This document shows positions 2,595 to 64,000 of a DNA stretch of 64,000 nucleotides, in pieces. A program made the position numbers and the translations under genes. The notes beneath the pieces were generated by a model. That model saw nothing but the letters and a program-made list of their open reading frames with translations. It did no database searches and was not told the origin of the DNA. Origin of the DNA: Apostichopus japonicus (Eukaryota > Echinodermata > Holothuroidea > Aspidochirotida > Stichopodidae); the NCBI RefSeq assembly GCF_037975245.1, contig NC_092579.1:16020178-16084177 (forward strand), written 5' to 3'. Within the stretch, counting starts at the first letter, position 1; each line of letters starts with the position of its first letter.

Positions 2595-5500
2595 GATTAG
2601 CATCAGTGGAATTAATCACAAATGAACGCCCAGCTGTTGGTAACTGTTCAGTGGTGCCAAGCAACGGTACTGCTCTGGAGACAGAATTCAATGTCTTCTG
2701 TGAGGATTGGACGGATCCGGACATGCCGCTGAACTACAGATTTGCACAGCGACTGAGGGCCTCGGACGCATGGACGTGGATCTACAGTGGTATGATGAAC
2801 TTTAATTGTTTGTAATTTGAATTTGAACCATAGGTCAAGTAGCTGGTTCAATGATATTACTGTATGTAACCATATAAATCTCATCTACATCAGAGCCAAC
2901 CTTTCTCAGAAGAACAGCAAAAGCCAACCATTGTGTTTGCCTTCACTGCAGTATATGGAAAAGTTTACATCTCAAAAATAAAGCTAACTTCAAACAACCA
3001 ATTCAAAAACTTTAAAAGGAGCTGCCATGGTGTAAAGATGAGGTTTTTAGTCAGAGTATGGAACATAAATTTATCTTTCCCAAGGAAGACTTGCATTGCC
3101 TATAATTAAAATATTCCTTTTAACATTTGTGACATACCAAATGTAATGTCAATTAAAGTAAAAGTTGTTTTTATTTGTTCTTGTTCACAGGTGAAAAAGC
3201 CTACATGGATGCAGCCACTATTTTCCCTCAAGGCTATGAGAGTGAAGACTATCAAGTGTATATTCTTGTCCGAGTCAGTGACTTCATTGGTTCCTATTCA
3301 GATCTTGAAATCAGCGCGCAGGTAAAAATGGACAGCACAGTGCAACATAATTTGTTGTAGTACTTGAAAATGAAAATGAACAAAAAAAGTAATTGAACTA
3401 GTTTTATAATTAAAAATGGAATATTCATTGGTAAGATAAATGATCATTGATATGGTTTCCTCACTGTTTAGAGAAAATATGCATTAATTATCAGTATGTT
3501 TGAACAGTAAAGTTTGCTCGAGGTTGCAGTATTCAAGTAATTGCAGTTGGTGCAGACACAAAGGGATTGCACGTATGACAATTGAGAAATTTGAAGCAAC
3601 AACAAACTTGTTGAGATGGAACGACAAAAAGTGATAACATTGTCTTTTTGCCAGCAGAACTTTTTACACTGATTAAGGGCTTGGGGTGGCAAACTGAAAT
3701 AAGGGTCCTGCTTCTCTTTGTCAAAAGGAAGAGGACCACTCTAGTAACATCAGACAAAGTTGTAAGATAGCAATTGAATCTTGCAAAATTTGAAATTGAT
3801 AAAGGCATTCTAAATTCCAGGTGCATAGTTTTGTAGGATGCATAAAAGAACCATATATAAAGAATACCATCAGCTTGCCTCTTCTCTTTGTTGGAAGTAT
3901 TGAAGGGAGGGGAGGGGGGTAGGAGAGAACCCTGGCCCAAATATTTAGAGAGGTTAGAGGCACAATATACAGACCACTTTGTTATAATCTCGAGTGATTA
4001 ATAAACCTGATATCTTTCCAAGGTTGTACCACCTGCTCTGAGTGAAGCAGCTATGACCGAGAAGCTTCAGAATTTGACCGGGGAGGACAGCCCGATGGCA
4101 GATATGATCGCAGCCGGTGATGCAGCCGGAGCAGCGAATATCGTGGCAGCATGTGCTGGAATGTTGAATGTGGCTGCTTCAACATCTAATGAAGTCGCAA
4201 GGAGAAGAAGGAGAGACATAGAGGATGAGATCCAGGCACTAGGTTTGTCCTTTATTAAAACTTTGATTGCTTCCTTTATTTATATTTCTTTTTGCTTATC
4301 AGTTTTTCCTTAAATTTTGTCTTTTGTAGTGTTTGTGTGTGTGTGTGTGTCTCTTTTACTCTTTGGATTTAATTGAAGATGTATGCTTAAGTTTTATGAA
4401 TATTGTTAAACTTCGTAATATTTCAAAAGGATCATAGTAAGATGTAAAATATTTCTGCATATTTACAATTATGGCAAGACGTGAAACGGAGTTTAAGAGC
4501 TTAAGGGTTGAAAACTGTGAGCAGTTTTAATTAATTAGCTGGATCACTATATCCCGAAAAACTTTATGTTTCATGCTAATAAAGATTTAATACTGATTTA
4601 TTAGTCTGGTGTTTTCAAAGTCACAAACAGTGCTTACATGTGAAGTACTACTTACTCACTATATCTCACTGAACCTCTCTGATTTGAAGGCTGTTTGAGG
4701 CTTCTAGCTGCATGCTATCAATGCTATTCAAGGTGACAATATTGTGCAATGAAAACCTTTTTGGTATTTTGGCTTTTTTTCTGTCTTTCTTGAAGATACT
4801 GCTGAAATGACAGATGAAGAACGGGAAGCTTACATTGCAGAACAGAATCGGCTAGCGGCAGAGGCAGAAGCCGCAGAAGCAGCTGCAAGAGCTGAGCGTG
4901 AAGGGGTGAGTTTGGTGTATTAACTGGCTTACATCGGGGAACTCCTTACCTTGCCGAACACGAAAGGAAGGAAAAACCCTTTCCCAACTTATCCAGGGTG
5001 GAAAAAGGGGTCCCAAAGTGACTAAACAGGAGCAAACTCACCAAAACGTGAGATACAAAGTCTTCAATTGAGCTGAGCGGATGAATTTCTCTCATCAAAA
5101 CCCTCGATGCAGACTTGCAACTGTTCACAGCGCAAGTCACAGGAAAAGCATGACCAGACCAAGGCACCGGATCTGGCCAGATAGAGCTGGCTAGACCGGC
5201 TCCCCTTTGCAGGCTACAGTATAGTTGGTGGTAGCTTTTTTTTGTGAGTTGAGTGCCGATGGCGCCGGAAAATACATAATTAATTTGTCCAGAAGGTAAG
5301 TCGTTCCCTCGTTAGTAGCCCCACTAATCAAGTGGGGAAAATTCAGGGCTGTCAACATTGCTGGGGAGTGACTTAATTAGCTGAATGTTTCAACAGTTTA
5401 AAGTGCTGCGGAGTGACACATCGAAATGTATTCTATAGGGTTGAGGAGCAATTTATGTGAACAGATTACCATTGTGTTGAGGTGTGGAGGTATAGAACCT

Positions 5501-58000: not shown

Positions 58001-59215
58001 TACGGAAGCGTAGAAGGGACATGGTGATGAAAGAGAAACAAACTCGTCAAAATGACAAAATTCAGAAAAATTACGTTTTGCCGAGTTTAACAACTCGTCA
58101 AAACGACAAAATTATTTAATTTGCCGAGATGCAACAAGTCGTCAAAATGACAAAATTCTGAAAATTGACGTATTGCCGAGACACAATAACTCATCAAAAT
58201 GACAAAAATCTGAAAATTGACGTTTTGCCGAGATACAACAAGTCGTCAAAATGACAACAATTTTAATCTCAACGTTTTGCCGAGATACAACAAGTCGTCA
58301 AACTGACAAAAATCTGAAAATTGACGTTTTGCCGAGATACAGAAAGTCGTCAAAATGACAAAATATTGAAAATTGACGTTTTGCTGAGATAAAACAACTC
58401 GTCAAAATGACAAAATTTGGAAAATTGACGTTTTGCCGAGATACGACAAGTCGTCAAAATGAAAAAGATCTGAAAACGACAACTTTCAGATTTTTGTCAT
58501 TTTGATGAGTTATTGTATCTCGGCAAAACGTTAATTTTCAGAATTTTGTCATTTTGACGACTTGTTGTATCTCGGCGAAACGTCAATTTTCAGAATTTTG
58601 TCATTTTGATGAGTTATTGTATCTCGGCAAAACGTCAATTTTCAGAATTTTGTCATTTTGACGACTTGTTGCATCTCGGCGAAACGTTAATTTTCAGAAT
58701 TTTGTCATTTTGACGACTTGTTGTATCTCGGCGAAACGTCAATTTTCAGAATTTTGCCATTTTGACGACTTGTTGTAGCTCGGCGAAACGTCAATTTTCA
58801 GAATTTTGTCATTTTGATGAGTTATTGTATCTCGGCAAAACGTCAATTTTCAGAATTTTGTCATTTGACGACTTGTTGTATCTCGGCAAAAACGTCAATT
58901 TTCAGATTTTTGTCATTTTGACGACTTGTTGTATCTCGGCAAAACGTTAATTTTCAGAATTTTGTCATTTTGACGACTTGTTGTATCTCGGCGAAACGTC
59001 AATTTTCAGAATTTTGTCATTTTTGATGAGTTATTGTATCTCGGCAAAACGTCAATTTTCAGAATTTTGTCATTTTGACGACTTGTTGCATCTCGGCAAA
59101 TTGAATTTTGTCGTTTTGACGAGTTGTTAAACTCGGCAAAACGTAATTTTTCTGAATTTTGTCATTTTGACGAGTTTGTTACTCTTTCATCACCATGTCC
59201 CTTCTACGCTTCGTA
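58001..59215. mobile_element. Foldback transposable element with ~52-bp repeat arms
   Basis: Outer ends are inverted copies: TACGGAAGCGTAGAAGGGAC at the left and, read inward from the right, TACGAAGCGTAGAAGGGAC. The next ~150 bases of each end are also mirror images, including CATGGTGATGAAAGAG and the AACAACTCGTCAAAACGACA block. Inside, each arm is an array of a ~52-bp unit (ACAAGTCGTCAAAATGACAA and AATTGACGTTTTGCCGAGAT), with left-arm units oriented opposite to right-arm units and the switch near 58475. CGTTAC(T) directly repeats at 57995-58001 and 59216-59222, a likely target-site duplication. No transposase frame. Confidence 0.88.
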
Positions 59216-60236: not shown

Positions 60237-60522
60237 GGCCGTGGCTATTCTTACGACTAGTCGTAACAATTATTTATTAACTACTCTTACGACACCGGCG
60301 AATTCATGCGCGGTAAAGTAAAAAAAGCAACTTCGCATGTAGTAGGGTTAATCCTAACCCCAACCCTAACCTTAAACCCTAACCCTAACCCTAACTCTTA
60401 CCCTAACCGGAAATTATTGTTACTCCTAGTCGTAAAAATAGTACTCTTGGTTGTAAAAATAGCACTTGCGCATGCGTAATCGGAAAATATTGTTACGACT
60501 AGTCGTAAGAATAGCCACTTTG
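60237..60522. mobile_element. MITE with 30-bp perfect inverted repeats and telomere-like core
   Basis: Positions 60241-60270 (GTGGCTATTCTTACGACTAG...) and 60489-60518 are exact reverse complements. Each contains the palindrome TTACGACTAGTCGTAA. TAGATTGAA occurs directly outside both ends (60228-60236 and 60523-60531), a probable 9-bp duplication. Sub-terminal partial copies of the terminus (CTCCTAGTCGTAAAAATAG) lie inside. No coding capacity. Confidence 0.8.
60352..60408 (-). repeat. Telomere-like (CCCTAA)n stretch inside the MITE
   Basis: About nine imperfect CCCTAA units (CCTAACCCCAACCCTAACC ... AACCCTAACCCTAACCCTAA) match the animal telomere repeat TTAGGG on the minus strand. They are enclosed within the MITE at 60237-60522. 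Confidence 0.85.
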
Positions 60523-61410: not shown

Positions 61411-63923
61411 TTCATCTCATTATTGCAGCCAACCCACCTTACAGCCTGAGGCAATATTCCATGTTCTAGTAGCTACCACAGTAATTTCCCTCTGGAGCAT
61501 GGATTCAGTGCGGATTGAGACCGATGATCCCGTCACAGATCTCAAATGCCAAGACAAGATAAGAGTTCTCACTCAAAATGGAGAGTGTTCCATTGAATAT
61601 TACCTTGGAGACATCTGCTGCTTGAAGCCAGAAAATAAAGTAGATGTTTTGCTGGTGTCAGCATTCAGAGGTAACGTTGTTCAGGTACTGTACATATGAG
61701 GATAAACTGAAAAGTTTAAAATTTTGTTGCTGTGATTTTTTTTTTTGGTTATAAAATTATTCACTCCAGAGCTAGATGACTTTACATTTTGATTTGCTCA
61801 TCCTTACTTCTTAACCAGAATTTAAACCAGATGCAAGTAACTACATAGTCAACCTTTGATATAAAATTTCATTTGTTGCCGGAATGACATTAAAAAAAGA
61901 CTGGGAATTGAAAAGGACTGCCTTGCTAAGAATGGCCCTTAGTCAAATTATCCTGTCACTATACTGAAAAGTTAAAAGTTTAAGATTGTATGAAAACCAT
62001 CACACACTTTCTGTGTAAATTCATTTGCATGACAAGGCGTTTAGCATGGCATAGTTCGTGCTATATCACCATTTTGCATTTTATATAAGTTTTAATCTGA
62101 AGTATTCAAAATGTCTTTTTGACAAAATAATTCAACAATATACAGTAGATTGTTGGATTAAAAAGGAAGGGAAACAGAGATGCTTATCAGTAAATGTTTA
62201 TATTACTGAAATAAATGATTATTATTATGATTATTATCAATATTTTAAATTTTATAGAGAATTATGATCCAATTAAGGGAACTTTGATTGGAGCTTTGAG
62301 ATATCAACTGAAATTGAACGTTGCTGAGTATGCACTCAATAAAGCTGAAGACCTGAGAGAATACTACTCCTGTTGGGTGTCTCATCCGTTGCCAGAACAT
62401 CTTCCCTTCAAAAGACTCCTGTGTTTCGAACCAAAGAGGTAAGGCAGGTCCAGATCCAAAGGGGGGGGGGGGGGTTGTATGTGGTGTACACAGCCCTAAC
62501 TTTCAGTTTCCACACATATCGATCTAAGGTTCTAACTGAGTTACTAGTTTGTAAATTTCTGTATTTTGTTTCTTTTAATCTTTTCATTTTGTAATTTAAC
62601 TTTGTCTTTTTGTAAATTTTTTTCAAAAGATTAAGAACTGTTCACCCCAAGGAAGTGGTTGGAGATGTGTTCAGGTGTCTTGTACCTATACTCCAGGATG
62701 AGGTTGGAACTGTGATCACCCCAATACTGTCTACAGGCAAAGTGGTAAGTGTATGCTACAATTTCTCAGGTGTTGTATTGTTACCAAAATGAATTGGGCC
62801 AGCATTTAAAGGCATTGAAGACTCGCCCCAAACCGCGTGCGGCCATCTGGAAAAGTTAACTTTCTGTTGCTTGCAAGTGACGTTTTGTTTGTGTCGCTAA
62901 AAAATGCAGACAGTACAGTAATGAAACGTGATACCTTGTTATCTTTAGCTGGACCTGAGATGTCCATCGCTGTATCGTTTGTACACTGTGCTGTGGGTAT
63001 TGACTGCAGCTGTATGTATACTGACTGTACAATAGTATCTAATTACCGAATGTAGCAAGCAAGCTGTATGCGTATTTTCTGGGATCGATGGTGGTGTCTA
63101 ACTCTTCTGTTACACCTCATTCGAAACTAGGTCATATAACCGGCATTAGACATTTCTTTTTGCGCGAGTCTTCACACCCTTTAACAATGAAATCACAGCT
63201 CCCATGGTCATAAAAAAAATAAACTAAAACATAGAATATTTTATATCCATAATACAGCCATAGAATAGTTGCAGAGAGGAGTAAAAAGTTGAAAAGGTTT
63301 GGAAAAAGAAATGGTTTCTAACTTTCTTTTTCTCTGGATACTTGTCCAAAATCAATCCTATTTAGTATTACAAAGATGATGGAACTTCTAGTTTCCCACA
63401 TGGAAGAACCACAGAAATGTTCATAACATTGTATTTTCAAGAAAGTATGGGGAACCTGTTAAATTTTGCAACCATATTGTTCATTTCCCACCAGATTCAC
63501 TGGTTTCTCTGTATAGTGACAAGGGTAGTAATCTGTATGAACACCACTACACTACATAATAATCTCATCTTAGTTACTTGTTAACAATAAACACTTTCAG
63601 CCCAGAGGTTTATATGCAAATGTGGTCTACGCTTTTGTCAATAAGACAACAGCAACAAATTTGTAGAGATGTTAAAGTTCTCCAGTTATCTCAAATCTGT
63701 CTCCAAGGGTTTCAGAGAGACTGACTTAATGCAGAGCATGGTGGAAGCAGCGGTCAATTGGATGAAGGCTGGCCTTCCTCTCAAGCAGTTGAAGATCGTG
63801 CAATATGCCGTGTTCACGGAGGAGGGTGAGGTAGCCCAGTCACAGAGGAGGGACTACGAAGGCATCAGAAAACTCTTTGGTGAGCTGAAGGAGAGGTACG
63901 ACATGCAGTATCTTATGCCAAAG
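61411..63923 (+). CDS. Macro-like domain protein, 5' part (relative of bacterial TIR-associated macro-like modules)
   Basis: Four coding exons (ATG 61499-61670, 62258-62438, 62630-62744, 63708-63923) are compatible in phase (1, 2, 0, 0) and give 228 residues before the frame passes a GTAAAA donor and leaves the window. The segment 61411-61498 is 5' UTR after an acceptor. Motifs in order: IEYYLGDI, VDVLLVSAF, YDPIKGTLIGAL, NKAEDLREYYSCWVS, FKRLLCFEPKR, KEVVGDVFRCLVPIL, ITPILSTGKVGF, LMQSMVEAAVNWMKAGLPL, LKIVQYAVF and LFGELKERY. I know this motif order from bacterial proteins in which a macro-like N-terminal module precedes a TIR domain. Macro folds bind ADP-ribose-type ligands; that activity is inferred. 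The downstream partner domain is not visible. Confidence 0.7.
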
Positions 63924-64000
63924 GTAAAAACAGATGTGTTACAGTATTTGTATTTATGAAGATATTTATCGACAGATATCGTATAGTCCGCTTTCAATGT

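Follow-up and report, generated by a model that had tools for sequence, protein, structure and literature searches.

A predicted macro-TIR gene of the sea cucumber Apostichopus japonicus as a variant of a rare prokaryotic family

Introduction

A split gene near the end of a 64,000-nucleotide stretch of the Apostichopus japonicus genome (the window; C19:16020178-16084177 in an assembly of 671,581,487 bases and 35 contigs) raises the question of whether an animal can carry a macro domain of the type that precedes TIR domains in prokaryotes and, if so, what the domain is joined to, what it may do and where it came from. The original prediction, made from the letters of the window, had placed at 61411 to 63923 an exon-split animal gene for a macro-like module known from bacterial TIR proteins, possibly fused to a TIR domain just outside the window. 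Followed past the window end, the gene has ten exons, the first four of which lie in the window, and the whole predicted protein of 750 residues has the order macro-TIR1-TIR2-TIR3.

Well-studied animal TIR proteins are mostly TLR-type adaptors, and SARM1 is the known NAD+-cleaving TIR enzyme (NADase) of presumed bacterial descent. Prokaryotic TIR proteins with regulatory domains, animal TIR proteins and macro domains are all known kinds; what is new is an animal member with three TIR domains, two of them degenerate, as well as the macro-TIR family itself. The macro-TIR pairing is otherwise found, in this analysis, only in scattered bacteria and archaea. Literature searches, which many subscription papers fall outside, gave no report of an animal macro-TIR protein among the papers listed (a prior mention is possible, e.g., in Gerdol et al. 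2017 on metazoan TIR families) and no papers on macro-TIR by name.

Gene structure and domain layout

The gene lies on the + strand, and its four coding exons in the window, flanked by GT donors and AG acceptors, join in frame to exactly 228 codons (Table 1). The start codon is the ATG at 61499; position 61411 comes after an AG and opens the 5' stretch, and position 63923 is the final base of exon 4. Every motif of the predicted series is present in the translation of the joined exons, so that both the motifs and the exon-split gene are borne out. Reading downstream upheld the proposed fusion as well: the 10 kb beyond the window edge contain Pfam TIR_2 matches in all three forward frames (39.1 and 34.5 bits, above the curated cut-off, and 18.4 bits, below it), and these resolve into three TIR domains.

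The gene passes the window end (64000), and the whole model was obtained by comparing paralogues. Three full copies, A (the gene of the window), B and C, lie megabases apart on one contig of 32.4 Mb (C19). They share the lengths of exons 2, 3, 6 and 8, and their intron phases agree at nine of nine positions. The splice sites are predicted, with boundaries picked within homologous stretches to suit GT-AG and frame, which counts against the model; thus, GT-AG is itself no independent proof, and the shared lengths and phases weigh more. A donor-like GTAA after the last codons prompted a search for an exon beyond exon 10. The downstream DNA of the three copies has no common coding stretch at E 0.01, a threshold that a short or distant exon may escape, and the TAA is thus taken as the stop.

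Amino-acid identity is 60.9% between copies A and B (740 codons), 45.0% between A and C (725) and 41.4% between B and C (724). Synonymous differences per site stand at 0.79-0.81 (saturation) versus 0.25-0.39 for nonsynonymous differences, and the linker of residues 520-589 is far less kept between copies (16.9-32.9%). By these measures, the copies are read as old, constrained genes, and the gene as a genuine animal gene with introns and paralogues.

The TIR layout is apparent with a profile of the prokaryotic partner TIRs, which places TIR1 of copy A at residues 232-367 (105.5 bits), TIR2 at 387-519 (98.4 bits) and TIR3 at 594-700 (33.5 bits, E 5.2e-12). Copies B and C have an identical layout, with scores over the copies of 104.0-112.4 bits for TIR1 and 96.9-99.2 bits for TIR2.

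Table 1. Exons of copy A and its relatives on contig C19. Exons 1 to 4 are numbered in the window; exons 5 to 10 are numbered on past its end, base 64001 being base 1 of the adjoining stretch L044.
Feature	Coordinates	Strand	Content	Remarks
Exon 1	61499..61670	+	ATG and first macro-domain strands, with GD (adenine-side Asp) and VSAF	translation, splice phase; also in copies B and C
Exon 2	62258..62438	+	macro domain: Y.P...LIGAL loop, NKAEDLR, SCW.S, CFEP	181 bases in all three copies
Exon 3	62630..62744	+	macro domain: VVGD.FR, second ligand loop P(I)LSTG	115 bases in all three copies
Exon 4	63708..63923	+	macro-domain end: EAAVNWM, GLPL, LKIV; phase-0 donor at 63924	paralogues, downstream TIR domains
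Exon 5	65105-65303	+	TIR1 (with exon 6)
Exon 6	66181-66343	+	TIR1 (with exon 5)	163 bases in all three copies
Exon 7	67205-67440	+	TIR2 (with exons 8 and 9)
Exon 8	68064-68200	+	TIR2 (with exons 7 and 9)	137 bases in all three copies
Exon 9	69048-69263	+	TIR2 (with exons 7 and 8)
Exon 10	69733-70350	+	TIR3
Copy B	C19:2124769-2133512		744 residues
Copy C	C19:29195443 to ~29209474		730 residues
Decayed fourth copy	C19:2094556-2097190		in-frame stops	~28 kb from copy B

One interspersed repeat occurs in introns of copy A on opposite strands (window ~62805-63211 and L044 ~2700-3070) and is also present in the copy B region. Upstream of the gene, window 58040-59173 holds two adjoining arrays of 52-base units (58120-58476 and 58473-59173) whose consensus units are on opposite strands, giving the appearance of an inverted tandem array. 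About ten copies of the telomere-like repeat TAACCC lie inside the contig at window 60349-60408.

The macro domain

Single-sequence searches with the 228 residues returned no relative in Pfam, NCBIfam, PADLOC, PDB, genome and viral contigs, phages or plasmids, one plasmid row at E=9 excepted; the relation is thus visible only with the right sequences in hand. These were supplied by a degenerate DNA pattern for SAFxxxYxPxxx[ST]LIGAL, which matched 35 stretches when scanned over 84,980 prokaryotic species (one genome per species). A phmmer search of the animal peptide against the 2262 open reading frames (ORFs) of these loci gave one match per locus in 35 of 35 (E 1.7e-40 to 1.5e-7), and a profile built from 33 of the 35 prokaryotic sequences scores animal copies A, B and C at 169.5, 182.8 and 179.1 bits. 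On these scores, the motif similarity of the animal and prokaryotic modules is far beyond chance.

The predicted structure of a bacterial homologue is a macro fold with PARP- and MacroD-type structural neighbours, and by this model the module belongs to the macro domain superfamily, as the original prediction had proposed. Chains of Vtc4, OsSPX2 and the T. gondii mitoribosome also rank high in the structural search; the OsSPX2 entry carries the name of a macroH2A fusion, and the Vtc4 chain is another such fusion. A profile search had been suggested as a check: Pfam is empty for the single animal sequence, and Pfam Macro is matched in five of the 33 prokaryotic domains (best 0.0096). Matches of the same 33 domains to Toxin_37 (one member, 0.0037) and FlgO (two members, best 0.012) are taken as chance.

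From the sequence and the bacterial model, the animal domain keeps two features of ADP-ribose (ADPR) binders: (i) the adenine-side Asp (D23, in 29 of 33 prokaryotic rows and all three animal copies) and (ii) the second glycine loop (G141, in 33 of 33 rows and all three copies). The first loop is of another kind, with SAF...Y.P...L(I)GAL standing where ADPR binders have NAAN...GGG. The latter is the motif of hydrolytic macro domains and is seen in L061, a weak match that on checking is an ordinary macro domain. The residues S39, A40, Y45, P47, W81, S83 and E102 are present in all three animal copies and in all four members found by profile without the DNA pattern. These four also keep L52, L56, D23, D34, D73, R75 and F117 throughout, and G141 in three.

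Certain observations temper the ligand assignment. The near-invariance of SAF...Y.P...LIGAL in the 33 rows is partly built in by the scan pattern, the four profile-found members being the fairer sample, and these vary within the loop (G54 in 3/4, F41 in 2/4, I53 in 2/4 and A55 in 0/4). Gln143 of the second loop, Q in 31 of 33 rows, is V in copy A and in the Asgard-phylum member L060, and Leu52 is Phe in copy B. The macro domain most likely binds ADPR or a TIR-made derivative (for example ADPR, one of its cyclic isomers or an ADPR conjugate).

The prokaryotic macro-TIR family

The module is the N-terminal domain of the prokaryotic proteins, and it is fused, as predicted, to a TIR domain, which follows in the same frame in 31 of the 35 pattern-found loci (tails judged by eye). 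Of the other four, L004 ends just past the first TIR strand, L024 has no in-frame TIR, and L010 and L034 leave the stretch. The 33 tree rows represent ten phylum-level groups, two of which are archaeal. Strong profile matches (E < 1e-20), seed genomes apart, are recorded in one of 226 further Asgard-phylum genomes, 0 of 397 Pseudomonadota, at least two of 338 Cyanobacteria and at least one of 344 Bacteroidota; the last three phyla are samples of larger groups in which only some of the candidates were scored, and their counts are lower bounds. Most weak matches span only the second half of the profile. Viral contigs have no match to a stricter DNA pattern or to the A1 profile, and plasmids have none to the L013 sequence. 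The family is, on this sampling, rare and sporadic.

Among the four strong profile-found members, L060 (Asgard phylum) has a TIR, and L090, L091 and L094 have another C-terminal part. This part matches Pfam DUF4145 (PF13643) in L090 (4.2e-7) and L094 (1.5e-5) and is assigned by eye only in L091. These proteins, from Cyanobacteria- and Bacteroidota-phylum genomes, are classed as an unstudied macro-DUF4145 family with distant members of the same macro domain. The macro domain is thus a module with more than one partner. The predicted tie of the motif series to TIR holds for the pattern-found set and gives way in three of the four profile-found members.

The macro-TIR family matched no model specific to it in Pfam, NCBIfam or PADLOC. 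NCBIfam and PADLOC match 22 prokaryotic proteins mostly with models of other TIR systems (Retron_TIR in 22/22, ThcB4 in 21/22), and PDC-S66, a candidate system with no description, is matched in 22/22. For L013, the NCBIfam matches score under the curated cut-offs, and nearly all NCBIfam/PADLOC matches fall in the TIR half. Neighbouring ORFs of eight of the 35 loci include no common operon partner by eye, no profile search of neighbours having been run. The animal gene has the macro-residue pattern and a C-terminal TIR of the partner type, with three TIR domains in place of one, and is classed by sequence as a variant of this family.

Two prokaryotic members have an additional N-terminal part. 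In L021:5115-8000 (-), of Catalimonadaceae (Bacteroidota), a patatin-like phospholipase (PF01734, E 1.1e-15) precedes macro-TIR in one open frame; in L028:504-2105 (+), of Saprospiraceae, a ubiquitin-conjugating-enzyme (E2)-like stretch (PF00179, E 1.2e-7) does so.

The TIR domains

An alignment of 30 prokaryotic and nine animal TIR domains distinguishes the three TIRs at the active site. The catalytic-position Glu is E in all 30 prokaryotic rows and in TIR2 and TIR3 of all three copies, and Q in TIR1 of all three. The G..W loop is present in all three TIR2 domains; TIR1 has the W in three and the G in one, and TIR3 has the loop in none. TIR1 and TIR2 retain the Cys of S..C..E, which in TIR3 is replaced by Gln. 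TIR2 keeps F212, G249, W252, S277, C280 and E283 in all three copies, the last being the Glu of S..C..E expected of a TIR NADase. By alignment, TIR2 alone of the three retains the majority of the active-site residues seen in prokaryotes; this pattern makes it the candidate enzyme, whereas TIR1 and TIR3 have the look of pseudo-enzymes.

Scored with a profile of the prokaryotic partners only, the animal TIR1 and TIR2 reach 102.6-118.3 bits and TIR3 40.9-50.6 bits, compared to 62.8, 62.6, 53.5, 52.8, 38.3 and 37.3 bits for six other TIRs of this genome (six used of eight fetched). TIR1 and TIR2 are thus closer to the prokaryotic partner TIRs than are these six.

Further clusters of TIR_2-type matches occur in the genome at C13:25.58-25.68 Mb, C16:1.09-1.27 Mb and C9:23.38-23.80 Mb, and most matches of the C9 cluster sit in long open frames.

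Proposed function

The protein is proposed, with modest confidence, to be a receptor whose macro domain takes up an ADPR-type ligand and controls TIR2. Ligand binding would alter the packing of the chain, with TIR1 and TIR3 as packing partners, and the altered packing would turn NAD+ cleavage by TIR2 on or hold it in check. In a cell-autonomous response to infection or damage, the output may be a nucleotide signal or the loss of NAD+, the protein having a putative immune role as nucleotide sensor. Partner swapping around the same macro domain fits a sensor. A more specific version, in which the animal has self-contained, one-chain Thoeris-type signalling, is speculative: the macro domain would sense the ADPR-type product made by its own TIR or by one nearby, the triplicated array of one active and two dead TIRs would be the switch, and the whole fusion would have been taken from prokaryotes and kept until three paralogues diverged.

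Several findings weigh against the receptor proposal. TIR2 is without D321 (present in 20 of 30 prokaryotic rows) and E324 (27 of 30), and it is the least-kept domain between copies B and C (42.1%) and not the best-kept between A and C (46.6%); confidence is reduced on these grounds. The TIR of TLR2 also aligns a Glu at the catalytic position, and Glu alone is thus no proof of NADase activity. TIR3, moreover, does not outscore other TIRs of the genome with the prokaryotic profile.

The same losses and uneven conservation of TIR2 would suit an adaptor in which all three TIRs serve assembly only and the macro domain serves docking, so that the protein would be a scaffold of the MyD88 type with no NADase function. 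TLR/MyD88-type TIRs are adaptors, and the loss of the catalytic-position Glu in TIR1 and of the G..W loop in TIR3 in all three copies is consistent with this alternative. It is nevertheless considered unlikely, since TIR2 keeps the six active-site residues named above in all copies, is the best-kept domain between A and B (69.9%) and is closer to prokaryotic partner TIRs than the six control TIRs. Comparably doubtful is that the macro domain is an eraser, which hydrolyses a TIR-made ADPR derivative or strips ADPR from a target and so damps the TIR. The NAAN...GGG loop is absent from the 33 rows, the four profile-found members and the three animal copies, and the profile aligns known macro domains mainly in their second half. 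Favouring an eraser are the macro fold with its PARP- and MacroD-type neighbours and the account in PMC9503650, in the part available, of anti-phage macro domains with TIRs that they are predicted to regulate, potentially with cyclic ADPR as their target.

Origin of the gene

The macro-TIR order on both sides, together with sequence similarity of the macro half as well as the TIR half, indicates a single ancestor that was already fused, and the scattered distribution speaks for transfer. A prokaryote is the probable source of the fused gene, with introns, further TIR copies and paralogues added later; this suggests that an immune protein of microbial making was adopted whole by the animal. Phylogeny, put forward earlier as the arbiter between transfer and vertical descent, places the animals beside L022 in the macro tree (support 83/70, long branches) and rejects neither origin. 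In approximately unbiased (AU) tests, the animals may stand outside all non-Bacillota prokaryotes (p 0.271), a result that tells against the proposed origin, and the animal side covers one animal genome; grouping with both Asgard rows (p 0.253) or with L004 alone (p 0.335) is likewise retained. For donor, date and even direction, the argument comes from the distribution of the family; the trees do not carry it.

Deep vertical descent, with a macro-TIR gene already in early eukaryotes (possibly of Asgard origin) and later losses in nearly all lineages, is judged improbable. Two Asgard-phylum genomes carry the macro domain (L004, with the TIR cut short, and L060, with a TIR), the AU test keeps animals with both Asgard rows, and a TIR tree of 13 rows draws the Asgard rows close to the animal TIRs, though weakly (support 80/81). 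This tree is given little weight because long branches meet in it and L004 fills 12% of its columns. Vertical descent would also require very many losses, given one strong match among the 226 further Asgard-phylum genomes and the rarity in the three other sampled phyla. Bacterial contamination or assembly error, which the prokaryotic nature of the closest non-animal relatives (in prokaryotic, viral and plasmid collections) might bring to mind, is refuted by the nine introns per gene model with identical phases in three copies megabases apart, and by a repeat of this genome within the introns.

If transfer is right, this would be a second animal TIR family, one that arrived together with its macro domain, and a direct connection between defence-type proteins of prokaryotes and animal immunity. 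The gene would also be a testable case for the taming of a possibly cell-killing enzyme, two of the three TIRs having lost active-site features alike in all three copies. As the prokaryotic parent family matched no model specific to it in the three databases, both sides are open to study.

Comparison with known systems

The closest likeness is to the prokaryotic macro-TIR proteins, which have the same macro domain, the same macro-then-TIR order, shared residues and the same kind of TIR. The prokaryotic chains covered here differ in having one TIR and no introns, whereas the animal gene has three TIRs (two degenerate) and ten exons. The macro domains of PARP9, PARP14 and macroH2A are more remote, with another first ligand loop, no TIR and 11-17% identity over structural alignments. 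SARM1 has ARM and SAM domains; by contrast, the N-terminal part of the animal gene is a macro domain, which SARM1 is without, and an ARM-SAM-TIR architecture is absent. Among the PDB matches to TIR2, the SARM1 TIR ranks low (E 0.23). Its likeness is that of an animal TIR NADase thought to be bacterial in descent, as described in the available text of a TIR atlas (PMC13142454). That text notes unstudied eukaryotic TIR clades and uses 'macro' in macromolecules and macrophages only.

Type II Thoeris is a match in how the parts may work, its macro domain binding ADPR-type molecules that a TIR protein can make. According to the accessible portion of PMC11204291, the macro domain of a transmembrane (TM)-macro ThsA binds ADPR and IAD, with oligomerisation, and His-ADPR is an activator in another TM-macro ThsA system. 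In type II Thoeris, however, the macro domain and transmembrane helices are in a separate effector, ThsA, and the TIR is in ThsB; the animal gene has macro and TIR in one chain and not this two-gene arrangement, and in the prokaryotic relative L013 the Thoeris models align to the TIR part only. The TirBCD proteins of Dictyostelium are a further parallel in the same portion of the TIR atlas (PMC13142454), in which a eukaryote acquired a TIR of prokaryotic origin that has introns and has been duplicated. There the TIR moved without known regulatory domains, whereas in A. japonicus the macro domain stays fused to its TIRs.
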